A DNA stretch of 64,000 nucleotides from Sneathiella aquimaris (GTDB taxonomy: Bacteria > Pseudomonadota > Alphaproteobacteria > Sneathiellales > Sneathiellaceae). Made by a program: the position numbers and the translations under genes. Below are positions 7,001-60,293 of the stretch, in pieces. Location of the stretch: assembly GCF_026409565.1 (NCBI RefSeq), contig NZ_CP112881.1:3231501-3295500 (forward strand). The letters are read 5' to 3'. Numbering within the stretch: position 1 is the first letter of the stretch; each line of letters starts with the position of its first letter. The notes beneath the pieces were generated by a model. It did not search any database. It was not told the origin of the DNA and saw nothing but the letters and a program-made list of their open reading frames with translations.

Positions 7001-8026
7001 ATGAACGAGATTTTAAATGCAAAAATCCTGTTTATCGGAAACAAGGATGGAGACGCACAGCAAATCGGCTGGCTATTGGCAAATATCTCCAAACCTTCCA
7101 TGGATCTGATGCATGTGCCTGATGCGCACGCTTTTATCAATCAGCAAAGCGCCGCAGGCGCCGATGTCATCCTGCTGGATCAAGACAGCACTGGCGATAC
7201 CGCTTTTGAAACCCTCAAAGACCTAAGAAGAAATATCCCGTCTGTTCCGGTTGTCATTTTAACAGATGATGAAGAAAACACCGGTCAGGAGGCTATTCGA
7301 AGTGGCGCTCAGGATTATGTTATCCGGAGCCAGTTAACCAGTAGCATCATGGCCCGCAGCCTGATTAGTGCGATTGTGCGGCATCAAGGTCAAAGCAACG
7401 CACCGGCGACAACGCCTCTGTTGGAATCAGCGACGGCTGTACTTAACAAGCTCCCTTTGGGTGTCATTCTGATGACCGAAAGCTCTCAGGTTCTTTTCTT
7501 CAATGATAAAGCAAAAAAATATCTGGAAAAAAAGGACGGCCTCATACTGGATTCAGAACAGAAATGCCGGGCAACCGTGGCCAGTGAAAACAAAAAGCTG
7601 GCGGAGCTTCTGACAAACACACTTTCACCGGAAACCAATGGAAAGGGGGAACTGGATTTCGCCCTGACAATCACCCGTGAAGAGAGTGATACACCGCTTA
7701 CCGTTATGCTCGCCCCAATCGGAACCGGAATAGCCGGCAAAGGAGCCGTTCTTTTTGTCTCAGACCCTGCAGAGCCTGTGGAGCTCTCTATCGATACAAT
7801 TTGCCGTCTTTACGCCTTAACACCCGCCGAGGGTAGGCTGGCTCTGGGTCTTACAAATGGCAGTAAACTGGATGATCTGGCTGAGGAATGGGGCGTTAGC
7901 ATGCATACTGTGCGTTCTCAATTACGGCAGATTTTCCGAAAGACCGACACCAGTCGCCAAAGTGAACTGGTTAAGCTCATTCTAACTGGCCCCGCCGCAC
8001 TTCAGGCATCCCCTGCAATTTTATAG
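7001..8026 (+). CDS. LuxR-type regulator with degenerate receiver and PAS-like domains
   Basis: A 341-residue putative transcription factor. Residues ~8-125 look like a response-regulator receiver (DVILLDQD strand with the phospho-acceptor-like Asp, VVILTDD, SGAQDYVIRSQL). The N-terminal acidic pair is missing (LFIGNKDGD), and the conserved Lys after the last strand is Arg (DYVIRS). Residues ~145-255 resemble a PAS fold (LPLGVILMTESSQVLFFNDKA). A LuxR/GerE helix-turn-helix follows from ~265 (LTPAEGRLALGL ... WGVSMHTVRSQLRQIFRKT). It faces the HD-GYP-like gene of the Lap-like module tail to tail, so a regulatory link is possible but not shown. No partner kinase lies beside it. Confidence 0.75.
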   Translation: MNEILNAKILFIGNKDGDAQQIGWLLANISKPSMDLMHVPDAHAFINQQSAAGADVILLDQDSTGDTAFETLKDLRRNIPSVPVVILTDDEENTGQEAIRSGAQDYVIRSQLTSSIMARSLISAIVRHQGQSNAPATTPLLESATAVLNKLPLGVILMTESSQVLFFNDKAKKYLEKKDGLILDSEQKCRATVASENKKLAELLTNTLSPETNGKGELDFALTITREESDTPLTVMLAPIGTGIAGKGAVLFVSDPAEPVELSIDTICRLYALTPAEGRLALGLTNGSKLDDLAEEWGVSMHTVRSQLRQIFRKTDTSRQSELVKLILTGPAALQASPAIL

Positions 8027-8059: not shown

Positions 8060-8258
8060 TAAATCCATATAAACCAGTTGGATAATCTAACCGAAGATTG
8101 CATCCCTCGCACTTATCAGCTGGCTATACCGCAGGGGGGGCAATACGGGCCGCCGCAACAGGGAAAACCGACGAGGTGCATCCGGGGCGTGGCCCACGGC
8201 AGCACTGGTGGCAATACTTGCACGGTTAGAAATGACCCGGCGACAAGCCCGGTCTTTT
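8060..8258 (+). ncRNA. Candidate structured RNA or long 3' UTR, unidentified
   Basis: The 230 bases between two convergent genes hold a GC-rich, pairing-rich stretch with no convincing reading frame. AACCG (near 8167) can pair with CGGTT (near 8223), GTGCA with TGCAC inside it, and GCGTGG with CCAC inside that. A terminator-like hairpin with a U run closes the region at 8234-8258. I compared it by eye with 6S, SRP, RNase P, tmRNA and the common riboswitches and found no match. It could be the 3' UTR of the LuxR-type gene or an independent small RNA. Confidence 0.35.
8234..8258 (+). terminator. Intrinsic terminator
   Basis: GACC-C-GGC and GCC-C-GGTC pair with one C-C mismatch around a GACAA loop, followed by TTTT. 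It ends transcripts from the LuxR-type gene and/or the RNA candidate, and overlaps the stop codon of the convergent HD-GYP-like gene. Confidence 0.55.
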
Positions 8259-10392
8259 AATCACCGGGCTGTTCGTCTGCTTCCGGATCTGGAAGGGTAT
8301 TCGAGAAATGCTGCCATTTTTCGCGGCCCCCGCCATTTTCAAGAAAATTAATGAGTGCACTAATGGGTTTGCGATCGTATTTCTTGTCCGCTTCTTCCAA
8401 AAGAATGCTGACCGCTTTATTGAAATCAAACGCATCTCGGTAGGCTCTCGGGCTAACCATACCGACAAAAGCGTTTGCAACGGCAACAATCCGCGCCGCT
8501 TCATTGATAGCGGTCTCCTTTAACCCACGAGGATGGCCGGTGCCGTCCCAATGCTCCTGCAATTGACGGAGGGTTTCCGCAATAGGCAGATCAAATTTTA
8601 CATTTTCAAGTAAATCCGCACTGGAAACGAGGCTTTCTCTAATGATACGCAGCTCCTCTTCCGTCAATCGTTCCGTCTTGGTCAGAATTTTGGACGGCAC
8701 CAAAATCTTACCCAGGTTCATCAAATTACCGGAAATATCGACGGTTCGGATGACCCGTTCTGACGCTTTTAACTCTTCGGCAATCGCAACGGCTACTTCC
8801 GCGACCCAGACCGACTGATGAGCGGAATACGGATCCCGCTTATCAACAAAGGCCACCAATGCAGACACAAGACTGCGCAATACATTTTCCCGGCGCTCCC
8901 GCTCGGTCACGACTTCAGTTATGTCCTGAAATACCGCGAGCATGTTTTGCACATCATTTTGATCTGTTCTGAGCGGAATAATGTCAGACTTAACAATGCG
9001 ATCCCCGTGCTGTGGATCCGGCAAATTCATAACCGCAGACTGAACCGCGTTATCCTGCCGGGCAAAATGAAGCATATCCAAAAGTTTTTTGGATGACTCA
9101 GGGTTCATAACGCTGGATAGTTTCCGGCCCAGAATTTCATCTTGAAGCAATTCTACATTATCTGCTGCCAACTTATTGGCAAATGCATATCGGTCACCCT
9201 GATCAAACACGGCTATTGCTGTTGGTTGCTGATCCGTAACGACTTTCAAAAATTCAGTACGCTCACGAAGTTCTTCGGCAACCTTTTTGTATTTCTCCGC
9301 AAGTTCCGCCGCTCTCAGCGACGTGCCGTGTCGCCAAACGGCCACAACGGTTCCGGTAATTCCCAGGATCAACAACAGAAAAACCCCCAGCATCGCGTTC
9401 CGCCGCTCCCGCGTCTCGGAAAGAGCTTCGATTGTCGTAACACTCCGCACCAGAAACCACGGTGCCCCCGAAATGGCCCGACCGGTCACAAGGACTTCAT
9501 CTCCCAGATAGTTTGACTTAATTGCGAACAGACCCGGGTTCCGCGCCGCAAAGGCCGCTGCCAGCTTATCATCAGAGCTTACTCTGCGTTTGAGTGCAGG
9601 CGTTCCGTCCGCCAGCGGGGAGATATATTCGGTCAACGCTCCTCGTTCGCGGACGAGAAGGGTTTCCGCTGTTTTCTGAACTTCACCTGGCTGAAGAAGA
9701 AGGGGAAACAGGGACTTTCGGACCGTTCTAAGTCCAACGACAAATCCAATAACCTTGTTTGTATCCCCTTCTGACTGAACGGCAAAGATCGGATAAACAA
9801 ACCCCATTGTCGGCTCGCCATCCAGCCCCTCATACAAATCTATTACAGCGGGTCTCCCTCGATCTGCCTCAGCGATGGCTGCACGGATTGCCGGATTCAT
9901 CGGTGGCATATTTCCGCTGGAAACCAGAAGTGTTCCAGTCCGATCCGTCAGCGCAATCCCTGCCCGTCCCGGACGTGCGACATTGGCATTAATCTGTGGC
10001 TCCTCTGGCTCCCAAAACCCACTTATAACCGCATGATTGTTTAACAGGTTTATCAGATATCCAGCTTCAGGTACCTCTGTAACCTTAAGACCGTTTTCTT
10101 CCGTATCAAGAACCAGTTGAGTAAGATAAACCTGCAGGGACGCGTTCTCAGAAAGACTACTGATCGCTGATTTTTGTTCGGCCAACCACCCTTCAACCGC
10201 TGCCACACGGCTATCGGCGACAATACCCAACCGGATCTCCCAGTTTTGGATATCCCGATCATGCTGTTTTCCAACAAAGCTGATTGTACCCCAAACGCCC
10301 AGCGCAACCACGAGAGCAAGACTTATTGCACCCAACCATACCATCCGATAGGTCCGTTTGTTTTCATAAGTCTCTTCTTGAATGTCTGACAT
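8257..10392 (-). CDS. Membrane sensor with PAS and catalytically degenerate HD-GYP domain
   Basis: A 711-residue protein. It has a short cytoplasmic head, TM helix ~17-40, a large periplasmic sensor (~41-345, Cache-like by layout), a second TM (~350-370), a linker helix, a PAS domain (~390-505) and an HD-GYP-like domain (~520-690). HD-GYP enzymes hydrolyse c-di-GMP with an HD metal centre. Here the HD pair (usual LLHDIGK) reads NLMNLGK, with Met558-Asn559. The following metal His is Ser (RESLVSS), and the HH before WDG is LQ (LQEHWDGTGHP). All these metal ligands are gone, so phosphodiesterase activity is not expected and a c-di-GMP-binding or protein-interaction role is more likely. The ATG at 10392 has a GGGA site; the frame extends 23 codons further to a TTG. 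It is divergent from the LapG-family gene, 164 bases away. Confidence 0.8.
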   Translation of the reverse strand: MSDIQEETYENKRTYRMVWLGAISLALVVALGVWGTISFVGKQHDRDIQNWEIRLGIVADSRVAAVEGWLAEQKSAISSLSENASLQVYLTQLVLDTEENGLKVTEVPEAGYLINLLNNHAVISGFWEPEEPQINANVARPGRAGIALTDRTGTLLVSSGNMPPMNPAIRAAIAEADRGRPAVIDLYEGLDGEPTMGFVYPIFAVQSEGDTNKVIGFVVGLRTVRKSLFPLLLQPGEVQKTAETLLVRERGALTEYISPLADGTPALKRRVSSDDKLAAAFAARNPGLFAIKSNYLGDEVLVTGRAISGAPWFLVRSVTTIEALSETRERRNAMLGVFLLLILGITGTVVAVWRHGTSLRAAELAEKYKKVAEELRERTEFLKVVTDQQPTAIAVFDQGDRYAFANKLAADNVELLQDEILGRKLSSVMNPESSKKLLDMLHFARQDNAVQSAVMNLPDPQHGDRIVKSDIIPLRTDQNDVQNMLAVFQDITEVVTERERRENVLRSLVSALVAFVDKRDPYSAHQSVWVAEVAVAIAEELKASERVIRTVDISGNLMNLGKILVPSKILTKTERLTEEELRIIRESLVSSADLLENVKFDLPIAETLRQLQEHWDGTGHPRGLKETAINEAARIVAVANAFVGMVSPRAYRDAFDFNKAVSILLEEADKKYDRKPISALINFLENGGGREKWQHFSNTLPDPEADEQPGD

Positions 10393-10433
10393 ACAATTAT
10401 CCCGCGATTTTTCACAAAATATGCCTGCAATGA

Positions 10434-10450
10434 GTTTACGAAACGTAAAC
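10434..10450. promoter_or_regulatory. Perfect inverted repeat, candidate operator
   Basis: GTTTACG-AAA-CGTAAAC has 7-bp perfect arms. It lies between the divergent HD-GYP-like and LapG-like genes, 42 bases before the HD-GYP start. Its core TTTAC-N5-GTAAA resembles the TTTAC-N4-GTAAA palindrome at 13354-13367 in front of the ABC transporter operon. Confidence 0.45.
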
Positions 10451-10500
10451 CATACTGACAAAATGGCGAGATAACGAAAAATTCATCACACCATCCCCGT

Positions 10501-10556: not shown

Positions 10557-11225
10557 ATGAATAGATTTATTAGTAGGCTCATGAACAGATATACTAAATT
10601 GCCGAGGCGATTGCTGATGACCTGCACATTTGCGTGCAGTTTGATGATGGTACCTCACATACCATCTGCTCAGGCTGTTGGTATTTTCGGTTTTAAAGAA
10701 TATGCTCATGATGATCTGAAACCGTTTCCTAAATGGAAAAATGTTTTGGAAACTTATAAAGATACCCCGGGCGACTGCGATAATGGTCAGCTAAACGCCT
10801 GCGCTTATGCCAAATGGGAAGAACTTGTCGAAGGATTAAAGGGCAAGCCGAAAAAGTATCAGTTAGAGCGGGTTAATACCTATATCAACCTCCACAGATA
10901 TATCCTGGATCCTATCAACTGGGGCGTAAAAGACTATTGGGAAATACCCAAAGAATTTTTTGCCCGTTTTGGCGACTGTGAAGACTATGCCATCGTCAAA
11001 TATTTCACGCTGCGTTCCTTGGGCTGGAAAGCCGAAGACATGAAGATCGTGGTGCTTCAGGATCTGAACCTTAGAATAGCCCATGCGGTGTTAGCGGTTC
11101 AATTCGACAAAAAAGAAGTCGTGCTCGATAATCAGATCGGACTGGTTATTGATGCAAAAAGAATAAGGCATTACCGACCCATCTATTCGGTAAATGAACA
11201 AGGCTGGTGGCGTTATAAACCTTAA
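10557..11225 (+). CDS. LapG-family periplasmic transglutaminase-like cysteine protease
   Basis: A 222-residue BTLCP-family (LapG-type) protein. In described Lap systems LapG is a calcium-dependent periplasmic protease that cuts the N-terminus of a surface adhesin and releases it from the outer membrane. A signal peptide ends near residue 40 (PSAQA-VG). The triad is complete: Cys141 in FGDCEDYA, His176 in IAHAVL and Asp191 in VVLDNQ. The start may be Met9 rather than Met1. It is convergent with the TolC-family gene across a strong bidirectional terminator and divergent from the degenerate HD-GYP sensor, not from a LapD-type receptor. It is the active partner of the pseudo-protease at 17160. 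Confidence 0.88.
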   Translation: MNRFISRLMNRYTKLPRRLLMTCTFACSLMMVPHIPSAQAVGIFGFKEYAHDDLKPFPKWKNVLETYKDTPGDCDNGQLNACAYAKWEELVEGLKGKPKKYQLERVNTYINLHRYILDPINWGVKDYWEIPKEFFARFGDCEDYAIVKYFTLRSLGWKAEDMKIVVLQDLNLRIAHAVLAVQFDKKEVVLDNQIGLVIDAKRIRHYRPIYSVNEQGWWRYKP

Positions 11226-11307: not shown

Positions 11308-12651
11308 TTAGCTGTCGCCGTTTGGCAATGCATCTTCAAGAAGTGTAACACCCAGTGTGCTGTTCAAACGACCCATGGACGCCAGCAACCGGTATTTGGC
11401 AAATAGAACCGCATATTCGACAGTTGCCAAAGATGTTCTTGAGTTGAACAGTTCGTTATCCGAATCGAGCATATCAAGAAGATCTCGCTGTCCGATCTGG
11501 AATTCCTGACGGTATGTTGCAGCAACCTGACCGTTTGCAACAACCTGATCACTCAGAGCAGCTGCCCGAGCCTGTGATCGTGCAAGAGCACTCCAGCCCT
11601 GGCGAATTTCTTCTTCAACAAGACGCTCGAAACGCATCTGACGCTGTTTTGATTCTGAGTTACGTTCAACGGCTTCCCGTTGACGACCCAGATCAATACC
11701 ACCGCGATACAGGTTGTACCGAAGACGAACCATTGCAGTGAAGTCTTCGTTATGCCCTTCAACACCATCAAGATTGTTGTCAGCGGACGCATCAAGTTCA
11801 AGATTTACAGTAGGGTAGAAATTCGCTTCTGCAGCGGTAATTTCGGCAGTCGACGTCCGAACATCTGCTTTCGCAAAACGAATGTCTGGATTACTTTCCA
11901 TTGCGATTGCAATGATATCTTCCAGATTTTCGGGAAGGGCACCATCGTTAAATGTTGGCAATTCCAGATTTACAGGAGCTTCACCAACCAGGCGGCGGTA
12001 TGCGATTTCAGACGTATCGAGCTGACGCAGAGTTTCGACAAGAACAGCTTCCGCAGCGGAGACCCGCGCTTCAGTTTGTTGCGTGTCACCAACGCCGCTT
12101 TGTCCAGCTTCAACGCGGTCCTGAATTTCGCGAAGTGTCCGTTTGTGGATTTCGAGATTTTCTGTTGCCAGATTAACAACCTCTAGGTTCCGCAAAACAT
12201 CGAGATATGCCTGTACAACATCCAAGCCAATCGCTTCAGAGCGTTCGCGAACCCGATAAGCCGCGCCATCGATCCGATGTCCCTGACGTTCAACTTCCGC
12301 AGCACGCGCGCCACCGTCAAACAATGTCTGGGAAATTGACAGGCTGCTTTCTGTGCGGCCAAGCCACTCTTGGTTAATGGACGTTGTATTTGTCCATTCC
12401 TGTCCACCGCCAATGGCGATATCAACAGTTGGATAATAAAGGCCTTCAGCCTGCTTCAGCTCTTGTCCGATCGCCCGGCGGTTTGCAGCCGCTTCAGCGA
12501 TTTCCGGATAATTGCTTACTGTGGATTGCACGGCTTCGGCAAGCGTACCCGCCATAGCTGACGTTGAAAATAGCGCGCTACCAAAAATGGCTGCGACGAC
12601 CGCTTTCGAAATCACAGTCCGAGTTGTGCTCGTGACTTCCATTGATTTCAT
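11308..12651 (-). CDS. TolC-family outer membrane protein of type I secretion (LapE-like)
   Basis: A 447-residue outer-membrane efflux/secretion channel. The signal peptide ends at STSAMA-GTLAEAV. Two outer-membrane-efflux repeats follow with long coiled helices. Characteristic pieces are AVQSTVSNYPEIAEA near the N-terminus, LSISQTLFDGGARAAEVERQ, the mid-protein VEAGQSGVGDTQQTEARVSAAEA, and FQIGQRDLLDMLDSDNELFNS near the end, as in AggA/LapE proteins. It would form the trimeric exit duct for the ABC transporter and adaptor encoded divergently at 13521-17160. The ATG at 12651 follows a GGGAGAGGGG site; Met4 is also possible. Confidence 0.9.
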   Translation of the reverse strand: MKSMEVTSTTRTVISKAVVAAIFGSALFSTSAMAGTLAEAVQSTVSNYPEIAEAAANRRAIGQELKQAEGLYYPTVDIAIGGGQEWTNTTSINQEWLGRTESSLSISQTLFDGGARAAEVERQGHRIDGAAYRVRERSEAIGLDVVQAYLDVLRNLEVVNLATENLEIHKRTLREIQDRVEAGQSGVGDTQQTEARVSAAEAVLVETLRQLDTSEIAYRRLVGEAPVNLELPTFNDGALPENLEDIIAIAMESNPDIRFAKADVRTSTAEITAAEANFYPTVNLELDASADNNLDGVEGHNEDFTAMVRLRYNLYRGGIDLGRQREAVERNSESKQRQMRFERLVEEEIRQGWSALARSQARAAALSDQVVANGQVAATYRQEFQIGQRDLLDMLDSDNELFNSRTSLATVEYAVLFAKYRLLASMGRLNSTLGVTLLEDALPNGDS

Positions 12652-13306
12652 ACCCCTCTCCCAAATCTTGTTCAAATTCGTCAAACTCTAAATCGAGTAC
12701 CCCTACTACCAATAGTTGGCTGGGATACCCGTTTGTTCCAGTACTGTCAAACATGGAGATGAGCAGACTGGGTTTAAATTTGTCCTAATGTACTCAAAGC
12801 GCTTGCATACAAACAACTGCATTATGGCAGTATCCATAAATAATCCTCGAAAATTCGCCGTTTGTGTCTTATTTGCAACGAATATTTCGCTTCAGTAATG
12901 ATATATCCACACAAACCATGACGCGTGACAGAATCAATTCCACACAACATGGCATTCAGCGTCCTCGCTAACACGCTCCTGTCATTGCAAGAATCACGAT
13001 ATATCTTGCTCTTCTCCAACCTGTCACCTTCGAACGATGCTCTTTAAGAATCTTTTTGCTGTTTGGCATTGTTGCAGAGAGTCTTCACTGAACGCACTCT
13101 CAAATTTTATGGTTAACGGATATGTCTTATTTTATTGCGTCTTGTCCCAAAGTAACACCAACATGCAGGAAAATAAGGGTTTAATGGTGATGGGGAGGTC
13201 TCGATTTATTCGATTTTAATGGAAAAGAAGCGGGATTAAAGCGGGCATTAACAGCTTTTTCATCAAATAGCCGTTCAATGTCACGACATTAGGTAAAATT
13301 TTAGGC

Positions 13307-13520: not shown

Positions 13521-15788
13521 ATGACAGATAACAGTTCGACATCCGGTTTTGCCGCAGGCACTAAAGAGCAGACCGTAAACCAACAAGAACCCGCAGCGAC
13601 AGAAGCCGCCGCAGGTTTAGAAACAGAAGATTGGGATATACGGCTATCTGATATTTCCAGGGCTGATTTGGATCCTCTATTAGGGTGTCTGGTTGCCCTA
13701 ACCAAGATTTTTGAAGATCCTCGAACCCCGGATGCCTTGATATATGGTCTTCCACTAGAGGAAAACCGGCTGACGCCTCAGCTGTTCATGCGTGCCGCTG
13801 GCCGGGTAGGCATCAGTGCCAGAATGACCAATCGTAAACTCAACAAGATCCCGTCGGTCGTTCTACCGTCGGTTTTGTTGCTAAAGGATCGCAGGGCCTG
13901 CATCCTGCTAGAAACAAACGGCAAGTCAGCAACTGTGGTTTTCCCGGAATCGGGAGAAGGATCACAAACCATTTCAATGGATGATCTCGACGCCCAATAT
14001 GCCGGATACGCGATTTTCCTGAGGCCGAAATTCAAATTCCGCGTGGAGCGGGACGAAACGCTATATGCCCGCAAAGGGTCATGGTTCTGGGGAACCATGT
14101 GGCAATTCTGGCCAACCTATCTTCAAGTGATGATCGCAGCAATGCTGATCAACAGCTTTGCCATTGCAAGCCCGCTTTTTATCATGAACGTTTATGATCG
14201 CGTGGTCCCGAACAAAGCGGTAGAAACACTTTGGGTCCTTGCCTTTGGTGTGATTACCGTTATCGGCTTTGACCTCGTGTTGAAATCCCTCAGGTCCTAT
14301 TTTGTCGATAACGCGGGGAAAAGGGCGGACGTTCTGTTGTCCAGCCGCATTTTCGAACAGGTTCTCAACATTCAGGTTAAAGCCCGCCCCGCCTCTGCTG
14401 GTGCCTTTGCAAACCATTTGCGTGAATTTGAAACCTTGCGGGATTTTTTCGCGTCTGCAACCGTAACTGCGTTGGTGGATTTACCGTTCCTTGGGATTTT
14501 CCTGTTCATCATCTACCTGATCGGTGGCCCGATTGTGATCGTTCCAGCCATTGCCATACCAGCCGTTATTCTGATCGGGTTGTTTCTACAGTGGCCCATG
14601 CGCCGGGCTGTCGCCCAGAATACCGAAGAAAGCTCCCAGAAACATGGCGTAATCATCGAAACCATTTCAGCATTGGATACGGTCAAGAGCCTGGGTGTTG
14701 AGGGGCATATGCAAAAAGAATGGGAACGCTTCGTCGGACAAACGGCGGAAACAAGCGTCAATTCCCGCTTCTTTGCGGGGCTGGGGATAAACCTGTCGGC
14801 CGCGGCGATGCAGTTGGTGACCGTCGCTGTTGTTATTTACGGCGTCACTGAAATGACCAAACCTGACTCGACCATGACTGTTGGTGCATTGATTGCATCC
14901 ACCATTCTTACGGGCCGAACAATGGCACCGCTCGGACAGATTGCCGCTCTGCTAACCCGCCTCAACCAGGCGATTGTTGCGCTAAAAGGCCTGAACCAGA
15001 TCATGAACCTGCCGGTGGAACGCTCCTCTGAAAAAAGACAGTTGAGCAGGCCACATATTTCCGGTGATGTCGAGTTCAAGGATGTCACTTTCAAATACCC
15101 TGGAACAGACCTGCCTGCGCTGTCGGACGTCTCGTTCAAGATCAAGGCTGGCGAAAAAGTAGCGATCATCGGTCCCGTCGGGTCAGGCAAGACAACGATT
15201 TCCCGCTTACTGATTAATCTTTACGAACCGGATGAGGGCGCCGTTCTGGTGGATGGAACAGACATTCGTCAGATTGATCCTTCTGATATTCGCAAGTCCA
15301 TTGGAAGTGTCATGCAGGATGTCACACTTTTCCACGGAACCGTTCGCCATAACATAACAATGGGACACCCTCAGGCGGATGACGAGATGATCCTCAATGC
15401 AGCCAAACTTGCTGGTGTCCATGACTTTATCAGTCGCCATCCGCATGGATATGACCTCCATGTGGGGGAAAAAGGTGCGACCCTGTCCGGCGGACAAAGA
15501 CAATCGCTGGGCATCGCACGTGCCTTGCTTCCCAATCCACCCGTCTTGATGTTCGATGAACCGACCAGCTCCATGGACTTGAACTCTGAACGCCGCTTCA
15601 TCAATCGATTGAAAGAGTATGCAGAAGACAAAACCCTGATTCTGGTAACTCATCGCACGTCACTATTTTCACTTGTCGATCGGATCATCGTTCTGGGCAA
15701 TGGCAAGGTTGTTGCCGATGGCCCTCGCGATGAAGTGCTGAAGGTTGGGCAACGCCCAGGCCGTAAACCTGCACAAAAAGCTAGCTGA
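13521..15788 (+). CDS. Type I secretion ABC transporter, LapB-like
   Basis: A 755-residue inner-membrane ABC exporter. The N-terminus (~45-180) is a C39-like domain (LDPLLGCLVALTK ... IPSVVLPSVLLLK) that binds substrate but is not expected to cut it. The membrane domain (~195-480) contains the ARPASAGAFANHLREFETLRDFF segment typical of LapB-type exporters. The ATPase has Walker A GPVGSGKTT, signature LSGGQRQ, Walker B VLMFDEPT and H-loop VTHR. It would energise export of a large RTX-type adhesin through the TolC-family porin. It heads an operon with the adaptor, the pseudo-LapG and the second HD-GYP-like gene. No adhesin gene is in the window. Confidence 0.92.
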   Translation: MTDNSSTSGFAAGTKEQTVNQQEPAATEAAAGLETEDWDIRLSDISRADLDPLLGCLVALTKIFEDPRTPDALIYGLPLEENRLTPQLFMRAAGRVGISARMTNRKLNKIPSVVLPSVLLLKDRRACILLETNGKSATVVFPESGEGSQTISMDDLDAQYAGYAIFLRPKFKFRVERDETLYARKGSWFWGTMWQFWPTYLQVMIAAMLINSFAIASPLFIMNVYDRVVPNKAVETLWVLAFGVITVIGFDLVLKSLRSYFVDNAGKRADVLLSSRIFEQVLNIQVKARPASAGAFANHLREFETLRDFFASATVTALVDLPFLGIFLFIIYLIGGPIVIVPAIAIPAVILIGLFLQWPMRRAVAQNTEESSQKHGVIIETISALDTVKSLGVEGHMQKEWERFVGQTAETSVNSRFFAGLGINLSAAAMQLVTVAVVIYGVTEMTKPDSTMTVGALIASTILTGRTMAPLGQIAALLTRLNQAIVALKGLNQIMNLPVERSSEKRQLSRPHISGDVEFKDVTFKYPGTDLPALSDVSFKIKAGEKVAIIGPVGSGKTTISRLLINLYEPDEGAVLVDGTDIRQIDPSDIRKSIGSVMQDVTLFHGTVRHNITMGHPQADDEMILNAAKLAGVHDFISRHPHGYDLHVGEKGATLSGGQRQSLGIARALLPNPPVLMFDEPTSSMDLNSERRFINRLKEYAEDKTLILVTHRTSLFSLVDRIIVLGNGKVVADGPRDEVLKVGQRPGRKPAQKAS

Positions 15789-15831
15789 ACCGAAGACAAA
15801 CTGAGTGAATGAAAGACAAATAGGCAAAAAA

Positions 15832-17160
15832 ATGTCCGACAAAATTCAATGGAGTGATACCGATTTTACCTCAGATGTTGTGTCAGCGAAGATGCAGGGC
15901 CCAAACCCTAAATCCTTTCTGCTTCTGTTTGGTGTAATCGCGTTTTTTGTAGCCGCTTATATTTGGGCGGATAATGCAATTCTGGACGAAGTGACCCGCG
16001 GTGATGGAAAGGTTATTCCATCAAGTCAGGTACAGGTTATTCAAAATCTTGAAGGTGGTATCCTGAAAGAACTGTTGGTACGAGAAGGCGAAGTTGTCGA
16101 GAAAGGACAAATCCTCCTACGGATCGATGATACTGGATTTGCCGCTCGGTTCGGTGAAATCGAATCCAATTATATGAATCTGATGGGGCGGGTAACCCGT
16201 CTGCGGGCTGAAGCCAACGGCACAGCACTTGAGTTCCCTCCGGAACTGCTGGCTGAAGCACCCGAAATCTCCGTTCGTGAACAAAATCTTTTCAATGCTC
16301 GTCAGGCTGAATTGCAATCTCAGATTTCTATTCTGCGCCAGCAGGCCCAACAGCGGAAGCAGGAGATTGCTGAAATCAATGGGAGGCTTGCACAGCTTCG
16401 CTCCAGCATAGCATTGGTCAATGAAGAACTGGCCATTACCGAGCCGCTGGCGGTAAAAGGAATTGTGCCAAAGGTGCAGCTTTTGCAGTTGAAACGACAG
16501 GTCAATGATCTGAAGGGCCAGATTTCGGCCTCGACATTAGCGCTCCCCAGAGCAAAAGGGGCCGTAAAGGAAGCCAATCAAAGGATTGAAGAGAAAATTC
16601 TGAACTTCAGAAGTCTTGCTTCTCAAGAGTTGAGTGTGGCGCGCGGTGAGTTTGAAGGCGTTCGCCAAACCATTCTGGCAGCCAAAGATCGGGTTACACG
16701 TACAGATGTCCGCTCCCCCTTGAAAGGGGAGGTCAAAGAGCTCAAAATCCAGACCGTCGGCGGGGTTGTTCGCCCCGGTCAGGATATTGTCGAGATTGTG
16801 CCTATTGAAGATAACCTGCTTGTGGAAGCCCGCATCAGACCTTCTGATATTGCGTTCCTACGCCCTGGTCAGAAAGCGACTGTCAAAATCACCGCCTATG
16901 ACTTTTCGATTTATGGAGGACTGCCCGCTGAACTTGAACGGATTAGTCCAGATACCATTGTTGACGAAAAATCAGGAGAGACCTTCTATAAAATCATCGT
17001 CCGCACTAAAGAAAATTCTTTGAAACGCGGCGAAGAAATATACCCTATCAAACCGGGTATGGTCGCAACCGTGGATACCCTGACAGGTCACAAATCAGTC
17101 TTGGATTACATTTTGAAACCAATTCTGAAAACCAAAAATACCGCGCTGAGAGAACGCTGA
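15832..17160 (+). CDS. HlyD-family type I secretion adaptor, LapC-like
   Basis: A 442-residue membrane-fusion protein linking the ABC transporter to the outer-membrane channel. It has one N-terminal TM helix (~22-42), a split lipoyl domain (VIQNLEGGILKELLVREGEVV and later VRSPLKGEVKELKIQTVGGVV), a long coiled coil (~90-280) and a beta-barrel domain. The ATG at 15832 is chosen because the conserved part starts just after it; a GTG 27 bases upstream is possible. Its stop overlaps the next start by one base (TGATG), showing translational coupling to the pseudo-LapG. Confidence 0.92.
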   Translation: MSDKIQWSDTDFTSDVVSAKMQGPNPKSFLLLFGVIAFFVAAYIWADNAILDEVTRGDGKVIPSSQVQVIQNLEGGILKELLVREGEVVEKGQILLRIDDTGFAARFGEIESNYMNLMGRVTRLRAEANGTALEFPPELLAEAPEISVREQNLFNARQAELQSQISILRQQAQQRKQEIAEINGRLAQLRSSIALVNEELAITEPLAVKGIVPKVQLLQLKRQVNDLKGQISASTLALPRAKGAVKEANQRIEEKILNFRSLASQELSVARGEFEGVRQTILAAKDRVTRTDVRSPLKGEVKELKIQTVGGVVRPGQDIVEIVPIEDNLLVEARIRPSDIAFLRPGQKATVKITAYDFSIYGGLPAELERISPDTIVDEKSGETFYKIIVRTKENSLKRGEEIYPIKPGMVATVDTLTGHKSVLDYILKPILKTKNTALRER

Positions 17161-17861
17161 TGATCAGGAAATCATTCATCTCAACGCTTGCTGTCGCTGG
17201 TCTGATATCGATCGCGACAGGCAATGCCCGCGCTATTACGGACACAGATCTTGGCTTATTCGGAACGATTGAGATCGCCTCCGATGACCTGACATCGTTG
17301 CCGCAGTGGAAGAGGGTCATTTCCAGCTTTAAGGAGTTGGATAAACAGGCCGCCTTATGCGACCGGGACATCCAGAAATGTAAATCGCAACAAATGACCC
17401 TATGGCGCGCAAAGATTCAGGAATTAGAGCTGGAAACAGCCAACGCCAAGGTCCGACAAGTAAACAGCTTCATCAACAAATGGCGTATGACCACGGATGA
17501 AGAAACCTACAAACGTTCGGATCACTGGGCGGAACCGCTGGAATTTATTGTCAATGGCGGCGATTCCGAAGACTTTGCGATCATGAAATATATCAGTTTA
17601 AAGGAACTGGGCATCCCTGCATCAAGTATGAGAATTGTTGTGACCAATGATGTTCTTCGGGGGAAGACACACACCATACTCAGCGTTGATACAGGAAGTG
17701 AACGCTATGTTCTGGATTCTCAAAATAATACGATCTTGAGAGAGGATCTTGTGCGCTATTACGTTCCTTTTTACTCGTTAAATGAAACAAAAAGATGGGC
17801 CCACGTTCCTAAGCAGGCTGCCGATCTGAAAAAGGCAGCAGGGGTTGAAAAAAATGACTGA
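17160..17861 (+). CDS. LapG-family pseudo-protease (catalytic Cys replaced by Ser)
   Basis: A 233-residue secreted BTLCP-family protein with signal peptide cleavage near NARA-ITD. The fold motifs align with the active homologue at 10557. The catalytic Cys is Ser136 (GGDSEDFAIMKY, codon TCC at 17565-17567), while His171 (KTHTILSV) and Asp186 (YVLDSQ) are kept. Cys-to-Ser changes normally abolish activity in this clan, so it is probably inactive and may bind the adhesin or compete for the regulator. It starts inside the adaptor stop codon and overlaps the next sensor gene, placing it firmly in the secretion operon. A serine-type protease is a less likely alternative. Confidence 0.85.
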   Translation: MIRKSFISTLAVAGLISIATGNARAITDTDLGLFGTIEIASDDLTSLPQWKRVISSFKELDKQAALCDRDIQKCKSQQMTLWRAKIQELELETANAKVRQVNSFINKWRMTTDEETYKRSDHWAEPLEFIVNGGDSEDFAIMKYISLKELGIPASSMRIVVTNDVLRGKTHTILSVDTGSERYVLDSQNNTILREDLVRYYVPFYSLNETKRWAHVPKQAADLKKAAGVEKND

Positions 17862-19923
17862 AACAATGGCCAGGTTAGAACTTAACAAATTCATGTCGGA
17901 TGATGTACCGGATGAAAAACTGCCGTCTACATCCAGACCCCTGAAAATCGGGGCCTTAATAGCGATTGTTCTGCTGATCATTTGCTACTTTGCATCCGAC
18001 TTCTTTATTAATAAGCAAAAAGCACAGATCCTGCAGGAATTGAAAACCCGCCAGGAAATCACCGTTGTCAGCAAAGCCGAAATTGTTCGAACCTGGATTG
18101 GCCAGACGGGTCAACGGGCCAATCAAATTGTGAACAATCCGTTGTTTCGTCTTTTTGCGGCTGAAATCAATCAAGCAAAAACAGACGACTTACCCCGGGC
18201 ACTGGCGGAGCAACTGCCCTATATGCAAAATGCGATTACCAGCTTCACACAGGAAAGCGATGTTCTTTCAGCCTATCTTGTGGGGGCGAATGGTCGGGCC
18301 TATCTCGCCTCCAGCGGGGCTTCGGGTTTGAGTGATCAACAACGTGAGCTTGCGATCGCGCAATATGCTTCCAAATCAATTACAACCTCCCCTTTACGGG
18401 TCGTTGGAGAGACCCTTGTTTATGACTTTCTGATCCCTGTCCTTCCGGCGCAATCTGCTGACTCAGCAGAAAATGCAAAAGTCGCAGGTGTTCTTGTTAT
18501 GACCGTACCAGCGTCTGGTCAGATCGCGGAAATTCTTAAGCCATCGCGTATTTCAACATCTGGCGAGAGGACCCGTTTTTATCAGATTTCGAATGATAAC
18601 TACTTTGAGATCACTCCAACGTCACCTCCTTTTCTTGCAGAGCAGGCCTCGGAATTAACAAACCAGAAACCTCGCTCTTTCTCTGCCAAACAGCTTGAAG
18701 GTGAGCCTGATAGCGTTTATGGAATTGGTACAATCGTTCAAGGAACAAACTGGTATATTCTACAAGGCGAGACAGAGCGATCCGCCTTCGCCCCGCTAGA
18801 GACCTATGCGCTGGTCATCTACGGTATTGCTGCCAGTATTTTTGTTGTGGCCATGAGTGTTTTGGTTGGAATCTGGTTAAGCCTTCGCAGTTCAAATGCT
18901 AAAGCAATGGCCGACCAGTACCGGGATTTTGCCCATCAGATCAACGCGCAACGCCGCTTGTTAGGCAGTATCAACAACACAATTGATGACCTGATTTCTT
19001 TGACGGATGCGTCTGGGCGGTATGTTTATGCCAATCCGGCGCTCGCCCGTTTTGTTAATTTTCCAGTGCAATCCATTGCCGGCAAATCAGATCGGGACCT
19101 TTTTGGGGATGTTATTGCCCGGAAACTGACCGACCTAAACCAGCAAGTCATGGATACCAAGGAAACAGCCAGTCGAATTGTTGAAATGGAAATCCAAGGG
19201 GAAACACGTATCCTTCGCATTGAAAAAAGCCGCCTTATGGATGATGACGGCCAATTTATGGGTATCGTTTCCGTTGCTGGTGACATTACAGATTTCATCA
19301 TGCATCAGCGCCAGAAAGAAGAACTCGGTCGCAAGACAATCTCGATTTTGGTTCACATTATGGAAGAAAACGATCCGTATTTGGCCGGGCATTCAAGCCG
19401 CATGAGCGAATTGTCTAATGCCGTAGCTGAAATCATGGAACTTCCCGAGGCAACAAAAGAAGCCATTCGCACAGGCGCCAATCTTTCACAGATCGGCAAG
19501 ATTTCCATCCCGTCGGAGATCCGAACCAAGGAAGGTCGTCTAACCGAGCAGGAAATGGAGATTATGCGGGGCCATGTTGGCAAAGCAAAATCTGTCCTGT
19601 CTGACATGGAAATCGACCAATCGGTAGTTACTGCTGTTACCCATATGTATGAGCGACTGGATGGAAGCGGTTATCCAGCGCAGCTGAGCGGTGCCGAAAT
19701 TGATATGTCCGGTCGAATTCTTGGCATTACAGATATTCTCGTGGCCCGCCTCTCACCCCGGTCTTATCGTGAAGCGATTAGCACTGAAGAAGCAATGGAA
19801 GTCTTTAGAAGCAATCCGGAGAAGTATGATCAGGACGTGGTCGTTGCACTGGACCAGTTCCTGACGACACCGGAAGGCGAGGCTTTCAAAGAGAATGTGA
19901 AAGAGGCCGCTATTCTAGAATAA
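17854..19923 (+). CDS. Membrane sensor with PAS and partly degenerate HD-GYP domain
   Basis: A 689-residue paralogue of the sensor at 8257. It has TM ~30-50, a periplasmic sensor (~51-320), a second TM (~325-345), a PAS domain (~365-475) and an HD-GYP-like domain (~490-660). The HD pair is Ser545-Gln546 (GANLSQIGKI). The next metal His is kept (MRGHVGK), the HH motif is HM (VTHMYERLDGSGYP), and the GYP motif itself is intact. Without the HD centre, hydrolysis of c-di-GMP is doubtful, but binding is possible. The ATG at 17854 has an AGGGG site, and the gene overlaps the pseudo-LapG stop by 8 bases. It is the last gene of the operon before a strong terminator. Confidence 0.82.
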   Translation: MTETMARLELNKFMSDDVPDEKLPSTSRPLKIGALIAIVLLIICYFASDFFINKQKAQILQELKTRQEITVVSKAEIVRTWIGQTGQRANQIVNNPLFRLFAAEINQAKTDDLPRALAEQLPYMQNAITSFTQESDVLSAYLVGANGRAYLASSGASGLSDQQRELAIAQYASKSITTSPLRVVGETLVYDFLIPVLPAQSADSAENAKVAGVLVMTVPASGQIAEILKPSRISTSGERTRFYQISNDNYFEITPTSPPFLAEQASELTNQKPRSFSAKQLEGEPDSVYGIGTIVQGTNWYILQGETERSAFAPLETYALVIYGIAASIFVVAMSVLVGIWLSLRSSNAKAMADQYRDFAHQINAQRRLLGSINNTIDDLISLTDASGRYVYANPALARFVNFPVQSIAGKSDRDLFGDVIARKLTDLNQQVMDTKETASRIVEMEIQGETRILRIEKSRLMDDDGQFMGIVSVAGDITDFIMHQRQKEELGRKTISILVHIMEENDPYLAGHSSRMSELSNAVAEIMELPEATKEAIRTGANLSQIGKISIPSEIRTKEGRLTEQEMEIMRGHVGKAKSVLSDMEIDQSVVTAVTHMYERLDGSGYPAQLSGAEIDMSGRILGITDILVARLSPRSYREAISTEEAMEVFRSNPEKYDQDVVVALDQFLTTPEGEAFKENVKEAAILE

Positions 19924-19953: not shown

Positions 19954-19982
19954 AAAGAGGGTCAGAAATGATCCTCTTTTTT
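19954..19982 (+). terminator. Intrinsic terminator of the secretion operon
   Basis: A 10-bp stem (AAAGAGGGTC with GATCCTCTTT, one G-U pair), a 6-base loop and a T run, right after the HD-GYP-like gene and overlapping the end of the convergent small gene. Confidence 0.85.
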
Positions 19983-20301
19983 AGGACTCGTCGGAAGGGA
20001 ATGTTTCTTTCAATACCGCATCATCCACTGCGGATACTACACTATCCATACCACTGGTTAGGTTGTCAGCGTTCAACGCTGTATTGGGCACAGTGAGAAC
20101 GCCGTTCTTTTCGCCCGGCACTGTTTCAAACTGGATCTCGTCCAAATGATCAGATGCTGCAATATTCAGGGCGTCAAATAACGCATCAAGATCGACAGGC
20201 TCTTCTTCCACAACGGCCGTAACTGCCTCTTCAGCCACTGATGGGATTGCATCAGCAGAGACTTTACCCAGCTCGTTTTTTGTTTCATCAGAGTTCGTCA
20301 T
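19981..20301 (-). CDS. Small acidic protein of unknown function
   Basis: A ~106-residue, strongly acidic protein rich in Asp, Glu, Val and Ala, without Cys, Trp, signal peptide or membrane segment. A DLDALFDALNIA stretch near residues 50-61 may form an amphipathic helix. I do not recognise the family. The ATG at 20301 is preferred because an AGGTG site lies 6-7 bases upstream; ATG and GTG codons occur slightly further up. It is convergent with the secretion operon and follows the protease gene on the same strand after a 214-base AT-rich gap likely to hold its own promoter. Confidence 0.55.
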   Translation of the reverse strand: MTNSDETKNELGKVSADAIPSVAEEAVTAVVEEEPVDLDALFDALNIAASDHLDEIQFETVPGEKNGVLTVPNTALNADNLTSGMDSVVSAVDDAVLKETFPSDES

Positions 20302-20524
20302 ACTCATCACCTATGCCGTCAGATACAAAACCAATGTTTCAACGGCTTCATTGCTATCACTAGAAAGGGCGCAAATTAAGCGTCAACCTATTAGTGCAAT
20401 CTATAGAAAGTAAGGTCTGCAAACATCCCTCATATGAGGTATCTTCTTACAAATATGGTTATTTTTTAATAAAATTTTCGATATTTTTTAATAAAACCGC
20501 CATCAATTCGAATGAAATGGGCAA

Positions 20525-55599: not shown

Positions 55600-55626
55600 G
55601 CGGAATTAAATTCTGCTATGCAGAAT
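55600..55626. promoter_or_regulatory. IclR-type operator with three alternating half-sites
   Basis: GCGGAAT-TAA-ATTCTGC-TAT-GCAGAAT contains three half-sites in alternating orientation, each 3 bases apart. The right-hand pair is a perfect 7+3+7 palindrome (55610-55626). It lies between the IclR-type gene and the first TAXI-TRAP operon. The same 15-base core recurs at 59036-59050. Confidence 0.7.
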
Positions 55627-55689
55627 ACCCTTCTAATGGAATCACGAGAAGAAAAAAAGTTCCATTTTCATTGGGAGGAGAAGAAGCAT

Positions 55690-56835
55690 ATGAAAACAGG
55701 ATTAATTTCCGTAGCGTCAGCAATTGTATTCGGGCTTACAGGTTTAGCAACGGCAAGTGACGTAAAATTACCAGGTACACTTGCCTGGAGCGCTTACAAC
55801 ACTGGTACAACAGGCTATAACCAGTCTGTAGCAATTGGCAAGGCACTTAAAGACAAATACGGCGTAAACTTGCGCGTCGTACCGGGCAAAAACGATATTT
55901 CCCGCATGTCGCCCTTGCGCACGAACAAGGTTCAGTTTGTTGCTAACGGCGGCGGCACCTATTTTGCTTCTGAAGGCGTGTTTAACTTTGCATCAAAGGC
56001 ATGGGGACCCCAAAAAGTCAGACTGGTCATGTCTGCAACATCAGACGCGAATATTGGATTAGGCACAGCCGCGGACGCAAATATTCGCAAAATGTCTGAT
56101 CTGAAAGGCAAGCGCGTCGGTATTGTCCGCGGCTCGCCTGCCCTCACAATTGGTGCGCAAGCGGCTCTGGCATTTGCCGGCCTGACATTTGACGATGTCG
56201 AAGTGATCGAATTTGGTGGTTACGGTGCGATGTGGAAGGGCATGGTCAGCGGTCAGGTTGATGCTGCCATTGCGTCAACCGTTTCAGGACCGACAAAAAA
56301 ACTACAGGCGTCACCACGTGGCATCTATTGGCCAGATTGGCCGCATGACGACAAAGAAGGCTGGAAACGCCTGAATGAGGTCGCCCCTTATTTTGTTCCT
56401 CATGTCGCAACACTTGGCACCGGAATTTCAAAAGACAAACCCTATGAAGCTGGGTCCTACCCATACCCCATTCTGATCACACAGGACGATCAGGATCCTG
56501 AGCTGGTCTATTCCATGGCCAAAGCCATTCACACAGAATATGATAATTATAAAGATGCTCTTCCTGCGATGTCCGGTTGGAATCTTGACCGTCAGACGTT
56601 CAAGTGGGCTGTTCCTTATCATGAAGCAGCCGTTAAATACTGGAAAGAGATCGGCGCCTGGACGGCCGAAATGGACGCCCATAACAATGCCCTGATTGAC
56701 CGTCAGAATACTTTGGCTGATGCATGGGCAACAATGGCATCCAAAGACCTTTCTGAAGAAGACTTCAAAACCGAATGGATGAAAGTCCGCGCGGCCGCAC
56801 TGGAAGCAAAAGGCATGAATCCAGTATGGAAATAA
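55690..56835 (+). CDS. TAXI-type TRAP transporter substrate-binding protein 1
   Basis: A 381-residue periplasmic binding protein of the TAXI (TRAP-associated extracytoplasmic immunogenic) family. The signal peptide ends TATA-SD. Family features are TLAWSAYNTGTTGYNQSVAIGKAL, a VVPGKNDISRMSPLR segment and LKGKRVGIVRGSPAL. The ligand is unknown but probably a carboxylate, given the catabolic neighbours. ATG 55690 follows GGGAGGAG; the longer frame upstream runs through the operator. It overlaps the permease gene by 10 bases. Confidence 0.92.
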   Translation: MKTGLISVASAIVFGLTGLATASDVKLPGTLAWSAYNTGTTGYNQSVAIGKALKDKYGVNLRVVPGKNDISRMSPLRTNKVQFVANGGGTYFASEGVFNFASKAWGPQKVRLVMSATSDANIGLGTAADANIRKMSDLKGKRVGIVRGSPALTIGAQAALAFAGLTFDDVEVIEFGGYGAMWKGMVSGQVDAAIASTVSGPTKKLQASPRGIYWPDWPHDDKEGWKRLNEVAPYFVPHVATLGTGISKDKPYEAGSYPYPILITQDDQDPELVYSMAKAIHTEYDNYKDALPAMSGWNLDRQTFKWAVPYHEAAVKYWKEIGAWTAEMDAHNNALIDRQNTLADAWATMASKDLSEEDFKTEWMKVRAAALEAKGMNPVWK

Positions 56836-58829
56836 CCAAAGAGCTGGAAAACAACGTGGCGGAGCCTGAAATTCAGGCCCGCCACCGCACTCTGTCGTCT
56901 TTTTGGAATTTAGTACTGATTATTGCCACCCTCATCGTTGTGGCCCTTTCGGTGAACCAGCTCTTTAATTTCGGCTTTTTCATTAATCACATTTGGCTGG
57001 ACAACAAGTACCAATACGCCCTGTTTGGCCTGCTTGTCCCGTTAGTTTTCCTGATTTTCCCGATGCGCCAACAGTCCAGCACGACACAAGTGCCCTGGTA
57101 TGACGTCTTGTTCTTCGCCAGCATGCTTGCTGTTTTGATGTTCTTTTTCATCAATGCAGAAAGAATACTGGATAGTGGATGGGAAATGGGGGCACCAGAT
57201 TACGTTGTGGGCATGGGCCTGCTCCTGTGGGCTTTGGTGCTGGAAGCAACCCGACGGGCAGGCGGAACAGCACTTTTCGTCATTGTCTTCCTGATTTCTC
57301 TTTACCCGCTCTATGCTGAAGTAATGCCAGGGCCGATTTCAGGACTGTCCAGTACATTTGCAGATACCACCGCCTACCACACCCTCAGTGCAGAGAGTAT
57401 GCTCGGCATTCCAATGCAGGCCTTGGCCAACCTTGTCATCGGTTTTCTGATTTTTGGTGTTGCGCTTACACAAACCGGAGGGGGACGCTTCTTTATCAAC
57501 TTGGCGTTTGCATTACTTGGACATGTCAGAGGAGGACCTGCAAAAGTAGCCATTTTTTCTTCAGGGTTAATGGGTTCCATGAGCGGCAGTGTGGTTTCAA
57601 ATGTTATTACAACAGGTGTTCTGACAATCCCGGCCATGAGAAAAACCGGCTTTTCAAGAGCCTATGCGGGAGGCGTTGAAGCCTGTGCTTCCACAGGCGG
57701 TGTGCTTATGCCACCCATAATGGGTTCAACCGCCTTCATTATGGCCGTCTTTTTGGATGTGCCCTATATCACGATTGCGGTTGCCGCCATTATTCCTTCA
57801 ATCCTGTATTACCTCGCTCTGTTTATTCAGATCGACGCCTTTGCAGCGCGTAATGACATGCCGGGGATAAAGCGGGAAAATTTACCGTCGCTCAAACAGA
57901 CACTGCTCGAGGGGTGGCATTTTATCGCTGTATTCGTTCTGTTAATCGTCATGTTGATTTATCTGAAACAGGAAGTACTCGCTCCGTTTTACGCAACGGT
58001 CCTCCTGCTGGCGATCAATCAGATATTCCCGCATAGCCGGTGGAACGGAAAAGACTTTGTAAATTTCGTTCTGGCTACGGGCAAATTACTGGCTGAAATT
58101 GGGGGTATCCTTGTTGGCGTTGGCCTGATTGTGGGTGCACTTTCCATTACTGGGATGGCAGGAACATTGGTCAACGACCTGATTTTCCTTGCCGGTGGTA
58201 ACACACTTGTTCTTTTGGTAATGGGTGCGATTACAAGCTTTATTATGGGCATCGGCATGACAGTGACCGCCGCCTATATTTTCTTGGCTATCGTATTGGC
58301 CCCCGCACTGATCCAAGGTGGTCTGGAACCGATGTCAGTACATTTGTTCATTTTGTATTGGGGTATGGTTTCTTTCATAACACCGCCAGTTGCTCTGGGC
58401 GCCTTTGCTGCGGCATCGATTGCTGGCGCCAGTCCAATGAAAACAGGACTGGAAGCCATGCGGTTGGGATCGATTATCTATTTCGTTCCCTTCTTCTTCG
58501 TTCTGGATCCCGCCTTTATTTTGCAAGGCGAAATTGGACGGTCGATGTTACTGTTTGTGTCCGCTGTTGGGGGTGTCATCCTGGTTGCAAGCGCCCTGCA
58601 AGGATATTTGATCGGTATTGGCAACCTGCACAGACATCCTGTCTTCGGATGGCTGATCAGAGCCGCCGTCCTTTTCGGAGGCTTACTCCTTGCCACTCCA
58701 GGGGGGAGCGATCTGATCCCCTTTAGTGACCTGGAATTAGGCTTGGCAGCCCTCATGTTTACGGGCCCTGCCGTTGCTATGGCGTTTTATTTTGATCGCG
58801 GCCACACCAAAAAACAACATATTACCTAA
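56826..58829 (+). CDS. TAXI-TRAP fused permease 1 (DctQM-like)
   Basis: A 667-residue inner-membrane protein fusing the small (Q) and large (M) TRAP subunits, with ~17-18 membrane helices. Characteristic are GFSRAYAGGVEACASTGGVLMPPIMGS, GMTVTAAYIFLAIVLAPALIQGG and FITPPVALGAFAAASIAGASP. Sodium-driven uptake is known for the family. The start lies inside the end of the binding-protein gene. A strong terminator follows. Confidence 0.93.
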   Translation: MEITKELENNVAEPEIQARHRTLSSFWNLVLIIATLIVVALSVNQLFNFGFFINHIWLDNKYQYALFGLLVPLVFLIFPMRQQSSTTQVPWYDVLFFASMLAVLMFFFINAERILDSGWEMGAPDYVVGMGLLLWALVLEATRRAGGTALFVIVFLISLYPLYAEVMPGPISGLSSTFADTTAYHTLSAESMLGIPMQALANLVIGFLIFGVALTQTGGGRFFINLAFALLGHVRGGPAKVAIFSSGLMGSMSGSVVSNVITTGVLTIPAMRKTGFSRAYAGGVEACASTGGVLMPPIMGSTAFIMAVFLDVPYITIAVAAIIPSILYYLALFIQIDAFAARNDMPGIKRENLPSLKQTLLEGWHFIAVFVLLIVMLIYLKQEVLAPFYATVLLLAINQIFPHSRWNGKDFVNFVLATGKLLAEIGGILVGVGLIVGALSITGMAGTLVNDLIFLAGGNTLVLLVMGAITSFIMGIGMTVTAAYIFLAIVLAPALIQGGLEPMSVHLFILYWGMVSFITPPVALGAFAAASIAGASPMKTGLEAMRLGSIIYFVPFFFVLDPAFILQGEIGRSMLLFVSAVGGVILVASALQGYLIGIGNLHRHPVFGWLIRAAVLFGGLLLATPGGSDLIPFSDLELGLAALMFTGPAVAMAFYFDRGHTKKQHIT

Positions 58830-58841
58830 TGACCAAACGAG

Positions 58842-58891
58842 GAGCAGCAGATCTGATTTTGACAAAATAATCAGATCTGCTGCTCTTTTTT
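58842..58891 (+). terminator. Strong intrinsic terminator between the two TAXI-TRAP operons
   Basis: A perfect 17-bp stem (GAGCAGCAGATCTGATT and its complement) with a 10-base loop and a TTTTTT tail. It makes the two transporter operons separate transcription units. Confidence 0.95.
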
Positions 58892-59035
58892 CATTGGCAT
58901 AAATATTATATAAATCAAATACAAAGCACTTTTTTATTATCCTTCCCCCAAGACATACCCGCATTCAGTGTGTGCACTTCACCCGCATTGCGATTCTGCT
59001 GCAAGTCAAACAATTTTTGCTCTTGCAGAATGGTG

Positions 59036-59050
59036 TTCTGCTATGCAGAA
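59036..59050. promoter_or_regulatory. Second IclR-type operator, identical core
   Basis: TTCTGC-TAT-GCAGAA is identical to the core at 55611-55625. Additional half-sites ATTCTGC (58993-58999) and GCAGAAT (59025-59031) lie just upstream. It is 60 bases before the second TAXI gene. Confidence 0.7.
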
Positions 59051-59109
59051 TGCCCTCGCGTTGGAATGACAAAAACAAAACACTCCAATTCTTATATCGG
59101 GAGAAACAA

Positions 59110-60273: not shown

Positions 60274-60293
60274 TATACTGATCGTTCAGTGTC

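Follow-up and report, generated by a model that had tools for sequence, protein, structure and literature searches.

Lap-type adhesin release is a standard model of c-di-GMP attachment control and has been treated as a matter of one protease and one receptor. In the present study, we analysed a 64,000-nucleotide stretch of the genome of the marine bacterium Sneathiella aquimaris (hereafter the window). It shares with the LapD/LapG system of Pseudomonas fluorescens the LapG fold and family, a type I secretion system, adhesins with retention modules and the inside-out logic of c-di-GMP signalling, but HD-GYP receptors appear to stand in place of LapD and one LapG copy lacks the nucleophile. The operon logic is the same as that of DvhG/DvhD in Desulfovibrio vulgaris, for which the published account (PMC13090378, Nat Commun 2026) describes a LapB/C-type exporter, a BTLCP protease, PAAG adhesins and a receptor of the same family, namely dCache-PAS-HD-GYP with SQ in place of HD. 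According to the same text, DvhD, the c-di-GMP receptor of this Lap-like system, has SQ as its HD motif and binds c-di-GMP without hydrolysis, and DvhG activity is eliminated by C317A or when the Ca2+ residues are lost; experimental confirmation of the published DvhD-DvhG model is still to come (PMC13090378). DvhG is an active Cys protease, whereas its syntenic counterpart here carries Ser, and the activity is predicted to reside in a second pair of protease and receptor. The DvhG/DvhD paper, in the parts consulted, mentions neither inactive homologues nor paralogous pairs (PMC13090378).

Two further comparisons concern the substitution itself. HvyA of Caulobacter crescentus is, like the proteins studied here, an alphaproteobacterial periplasmic BTLCP encoded in a trans-envelope export locus; it differs in needing its Cys and in controlling capsule rather than adhesins, and its C192S variant was made and exported but was non-functional (PMC4241560). 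A natural Cys-to-Ser replacement has also been kept in a papain-like fold in Plasmodium, where SERA proteins of the SERA5 type are reported to carry an active-site Ser (PMC2878606, PMC3265493), although organism and pathway are unrelated and the likeness is an analogy only. A search of openly licensed papers found no inactive LapG homologues, and no clade-fixed nucleophile-free LapG with its own receptor beside an active pair.

Two LapG modules in one locus

The receptor, protease, exporter and adhesin parts of the locus are all of known kinds. The exporter operon begins with a type I secretion ABC transporter of the LssB/LapB type (13521-15788, + strand; TIGR03375, 954 bits), followed by an HlyD/LapC-type membrane fusion protein (15805-17160, +; TIGR01843, 416 bits). 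The third gene (17160-17861, +; 233 aa, ATG start) encodes a Ser-type LapG/DvhG homologue, a putative C93 pseudoprotease that we refer to as Ser-LapG, and the fourth encodes a DvhD-like dCache-PAS-HD-GYP receptor, HDGYP_S (17855-19923, +), assigned from Pfam and structure matches. The called open reading frame of the receptor begins with TTG at 17845, and ATG at 17855 was taken as the likely start. The HlyD stop and the Ser-LapG start overlap as TGATG, and the Ser-LapG stop is in turn overlapped by the receptor's likely ATG. A TolC/LapE-type outer membrane protein is encoded at 11308-12684 on the - strand (TIGR01844). The gene order LssB-HlyD-C93-HDGYP was kept within the genus and recurred in the sister genus and in other families. 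No Rfam match to an RNA element upstream of the operon was found in the window. Past the receptor gene, an acidic 109-aa open reading frame (19981-20310, -) matched no Pfam family, and weakly similar frames occupied this position in about 10 relatives. Farther along, at 55618-62285, a pair of genes for a solute-binding protein and a fused TRAP-type permease is followed by a similar pair, in what looks like a tandem duplication.

The translation of Ser-LapG includes NGGDSEDFAIMKY and reads GDSEDFA where LapG has GDCEDYA. The codon read from the sequence at 17565-17567 (+) is TCC, for Ser136, which replaces the catalytic Cys. The alignment of the triad Ser136-His171-Asp186 was unambiguous and only the Cys was replaced, so the protein has the His and Asp of an active cysteine protease but lacks its nucleophile. 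D135 and E137, the Ca2+-binding Asp/Glu flanking the nucleophile site, were present in the window's copy. The N-terminal signal peptide MIRKSFISTLAVAGLISIATGNARA, read by eye as a hydrophobic leader ending in ARA, predicts a periplasmic location. Pfam PF06035 (Peptidase_C93) matched with 64.9 bits against a cut-off of 27, and NCBIfam CystProtLapG (NF045674) scored 74.1 bits, below an equivalog cut-off of 320 that the active paralogue, at 84.9 bits, also missed. Among LapG crystal structures, 4fgo was matched by sequence with an E-value of 3e-21. The AlphaFold model had a pLDDT of 90, and a fold search with this model returned LapG first (4fgq, 3.7e-13; then 4fgp and 4fgo), the nearest solved structures being LapG of Legionella. 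In the model, helix 136-149 begins at Ser136. Together, these matches identify Ser-LapG as a LapG/DvhG protein (BTLCP, Pfam C93) by descent and fold.

The genome, which is one contig of 3.94 Mb, contains exactly two C93 genes. The other is an active-type LapG paralogue at 10557-11225 (+), with GDCEDYA and a complete C/H/D set. Divergent from it lies HDGYP_C, a second DvhD-like receptor (8257-10461, -); each LapG copy thus adjoins its own receptor gene of the same kind, and this separate C93/HDGYP pair was conserved equally with the exporter-operon synteny. The DvhD crystal structure 9rc0 was matched by HDGYP_S (3e-52) and HDGYP_C (3e-45), and the DvhD dCache structure 9rc2 by HDGYP_S (6e-16). 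The HD motif is SQ in 23/23 genus copies of HDGYP_S, the same SQ as in DvhD, and the equivalents of the c-di-GMP-contacting P567, L577, Y621, R650, Y652 and R653 were kept in all 23, with differences from DvhD at the K520, K582, M646 and E668 equivalents. In HDGYP_C the HD motif is MN, and the main Arg/Tyr/Pro contacts to c-di-GMP were kept. On the sequence evidence, HDGYP_S has the make-up of a Dvh-type receptor (dCache, PAS and an HD-GYP domain without the metal-binding HD), and both receptors are of the dead-HD type predicted to bind c-di-GMP. A search for LapD_MoxY_N gave no match in this genome, nor did it in the control genomes. The locus can be assigned, from its predicted parts, to the recently described DvhG/DvhD version of the Lap system, laid out as two modules each with its own receptor. 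The first-pass annotation of this DNA had described the serine motif with retained His, Asp and signal peptide, and had placed the gene in one operon with the exporter. Both statements agreed with our results, and the operon was found to run on into HDGYP_S; the single sensor that it had assumed was replaced by two, one per LapG. A response-regulator-like gene with a C-terminal LuxR-type HTH, recognized by eye (7001-8026, +), adjoins HDGYP_C in every complete family locus and may be a regulator of the cluster.

Conservation of the serine and shifted constraint

In a sample of 25 Sneathiella genomes, 24 orthologues of Ser-LapG were recovered, and the nucleophile position of this exporter-operon copy was Ser in 24/24. 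Where the site was covered, Asp was present in all of them and His in all but one, which had Gln. The active paralogue had Cys in every genus genome, and C93 genes were present in 26/26 genomes of the family search. All four TCN forms occurred at the Ser codon (TCA 10, TCC 7, TCT 5, TCG 2), indicating that the amino acid was held while the third base turned over. A sequencing error or a recent mutation was ruled out by the Ser in all 24 orthologues.

The sister genus had Pro at the nucleophile position (GDPLDLA). In more distant alphaproteobacteria the operon copy usually had Cys, that is, an active-type protease outside this family; the exceptions were an Asp in genome G174 and, at locus L042, a Gly together with loss of His and Asp. 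The tree resolved two old clades, A with the exporter-operon copies and B with the copies divergent to their own HD-GYP gene, and the Ser proteins formed one clade within A. A single origin of all non-Cys copies was not rejected (AU p 0.079), and the Cys losses would number between one and three. Four lineages had a dead A copy, and each of them retained a Cys copy as well, which belonged to B in three lineages and was a further A copy in G174; Cys was kept in several genomes whose sole match was an A copy. These results fit a course, over few events, in which the A copy may have been freed from cutting once another copy cut. In G174, the dead Asp-LapG lies beside an HD-GYP receptor (L078, 4986-7885), and no exporter homologue was found within the 15 kb examined; a second C93 copy elsewhere in the genome (L088) is of the Cys type with a full exporter, and no other Asp copy turned up when the order to which G174 belongs was searched. 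Separately, in an alphaproteobacterial MAG, two distinct C93 genes of the Cys type directly follow one another (L045, 6776-8675).

The substitution rates were compared with those of the active paralogue. By the Nei-Gojobori method, under which many pairs were saturated at synonymous sites, the pairwise dN/dS of the closer pairs was about 0.07-0.15 for Ser-LapG and 0.03-0.12 for the active copy. The mean pN/pS was 0.408 vs 0.268 and the mean amino-acid distance 0.431 vs 0.312, and amino-acid change was about 1.4-1.6 times faster in Ser-LapG. These results indicated that Ser-LapG is under purifying selection, and an ordinary pseudogene was ruled out by the dN/dS values and the intact frames.

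The distribution of the constraint was examined in the same 17 genomes for both copies. The active copy had an invariant block of 16 residues around the Cys. In Ser-LapG, the Ca2+-site Asp/Glu was lost in 6/17 genomes, Y110, Y122 and Q188 were relaxed, and the longest invariant run was SQQMTLWR (76-83), outside the active site; in comparison with the paralogue, no other stretch was as strongly constrained. A run of this length had a p of 0.027 with sites placed at random, a calculation that ignores helix structure and clustering. The eroded Ca2+ site and the run elsewhere indicated that the constraint had shifted off the active site. Y201, P203, Y205, S206 and N208 of Ser-LapG were also invariant in the genus clade; in P. 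fluorescens LapG, the aligned stretch forms part of the side that faces the receptor (PMC4359373).

Taken together, the clade-wide serine, the absence of Cys from the 24 recovered orthologues and a dN/dS far below 1, though with faster change than in the active copy, answered the checks that the first-pass annotation had proposed. Its proposal of selection for binding without cutting was supported in one part, the fold having been kept under purifying selection without the nucleophile.

Probable pairing with the receptor and candidate adhesins

We compared the evolutionary rates of the two modules. The mean amino-acid distance of the dCache domain was 0.538 in HDGYP_S vs 0.262 in HDGYP_C, and the HD-GYP domain was also faster in the Ser module (0.379 vs 0.256); the PAS domain was not (0.329 vs 0.411). 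HlyD and LssB evolved slowly, while Ser-LapG was fast. Co-variation was measured in 15 genomes with partial correlations corrected for exporter and response-regulator distances only. The strongest link of Ser-LapG was with the dCache of its own receptor (partial r 0.68, p 0.0005), followed by its cognate HD-GYP domain (r 0.57) and the HDGYP_C dCache (r 0.41), and the active LapG did not co-vary with it (r 0.01). The adjacency of the genes, the matched rates and the partial r of 0.68 point indirectly to the own HD-GYP/dCache receptor as the likely partner of Ser-LapG. Since co-variation was also seen with the HDGYP_C dCache and the cognate HD-GYP domain, this pairing would not be exclusive.

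The likely substrates, as judged from their sequences, are two tandem RTX adhesins of 2800 and 1657 aa at genome positions of about 3.300-3.314 Mb (L140), a pair that begins about 5 kb beyond the window end. Their N-terminal retention modules are 88% identical and end in NPDLVAPAAG, sites that fit the published [T/A/P]AAG substrate rule. Another candidate, matching the LapA retention model (L118), was weak and had no cleavage site between module and repeats, and the tandem pair was preferred. In nine genomes of the genus (G003, G006, G007, G008, G011, G012, G019, G022 and G023; loci L154-L162 and L185), PQAG, PEAG or PASG replaces PAAG in the best-matching retention-module protein, and the active LapG of this subclade was unchanged at its active site. 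In 7/9 of these genomes Ser-LapG also lacks the Ca2+-site residues, which counts as a single observation, the genomes being one clade. It would fit a dead LapG in which the groove persists only as long as the canonical site persists in the adhesin.

Possible roles of the nucleophile-free copy

We consider it probable that Ser-LapG is a regulatory pseudoprotease that forms a pair with its own c-di-GMP receptor and acts by binding. Catalysis was inferred to be lost from the missing Cys and from published mutants, namely the non-functional HvyA C192S and the inactive DvhG C317A and Ca2+-site variants; receptor binding, adhesin binding and the sign of the effect are also inferred. In the proposed mechanism, Ser-LapG would be exported to the periplasm with a LapG-like fold and would not cut. 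Together with HDGYP_S directly downstream, it would form a signalling pair in which c-di-GMP decides whether the receptor holds or releases the pseudoprotease, in line with the model proposed for DvhD and DvhG. The free pseudoprotease would occupy sites, most likely the retention module and the region around the cleavage site of the large adhesins that run through the adjacent exporter, and this would tune or delay their release by the sole active LapG, which would answer to HDGYP_C. Ser-LapG could possibly act by adhesin shielding, by receptor competition or by both. The Ca2+ site and nearby positions eroded in the subclade disfavour a strictly kept adhesin-binding groove, and a residual Ser-based activity would also fit the nearly complete retention of Ser, His and Asp.

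Several other explanations were weighed against this binding role. The dead LapG could instead be a decoy that fills a LapG site shared by the receptors, including HDGYP_C, and so frees the active LapG, in which case adhesin release would be promoted and the adhesin would not be protected. The two receptors are both DvhD-like, the co-variation with the HDGYP_C dCache was above zero, and the five invariant residues from Y201 to N208 fall in the stretch aligned with the receptor-facing side of LapG (PMC4359373). However, dead and active LapG did not co-vary, the strongest link was with the own receptor, and the unequal dCache rates fit separate rather than shared partners; we regard the decoy, and likewise the promoted release, as unlikely. 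The place of Ser-LapG in the exporter operon is constant and its gene overlaps HlyD, as expected of a protein that scaffolds or chaperones the export of adhesins independently of c-di-GMP. Against such a structural factor, Ser-LapG overlaps the receptor gene too, co-varies with it and is fast while HlyD and LssB are slow, and the dead Asp copy of G174 lies beside a receptor with no exporter homologue within 15 kb, so that we give this explanation little weight.

It is also quite improbable that the Ser-His-Asp set forms a competent serine-nucleophile hydrolase acting on the same or another substrate. The fixed Ser with its third-base turnover, the Asp in all orthologues and the His in all but one where covered would agree with it, and the active-site Ser reported for Plasmodium SERA is a precedent (PMC2878606, PMC3265493). 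On the other side, Cys-to-Ser abolished the function of HvyA although the protein was made and exported (PMC4241560), the subclade has lost the Ca2+-binding Asp/Glu that DvhG needs, one member has Gln for His, and in related dead copies the nucleophile position is taken by Pro, Asp or Gly. In the model, the Ser at the start of helix 136-149 could be structural alone. A decaying relic, drifting after a second active LapG took over, would account for the faster evolution, the eroded Ca2+ site in the subclade and the other Cys copy in all four dead lineages. This explanation was largely refuted by the low dN/dS and the conservation, including frames open in all genomes, a long invariant motif peculiar to this copy, a Ser fixed with synonymous turnover and an operon kept across the genus, and we consider it very improbable.

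With the pseudoprotease paired to its own receptor as the preferred explanation, a tentative extension is that the same adhesins are under two parallel c-di-GMP circuits, one working through a LapG that cuts and the other through a LapG that shields without cutting. If this is true, adhesin release would depend on how protease and pseudoprotease are balanced, a form of push-pull control; no description of such control in any Lap-type system was found in the literature searched. A genus-fixed nucleophile-free LapG with its own receptor makes the non-proteolytic control of adhesin anchoring directly testable, and Ser-LapG would be a natural variant limited to binding, with which complexes of the protease with adhesin or with receptor could be trapped.
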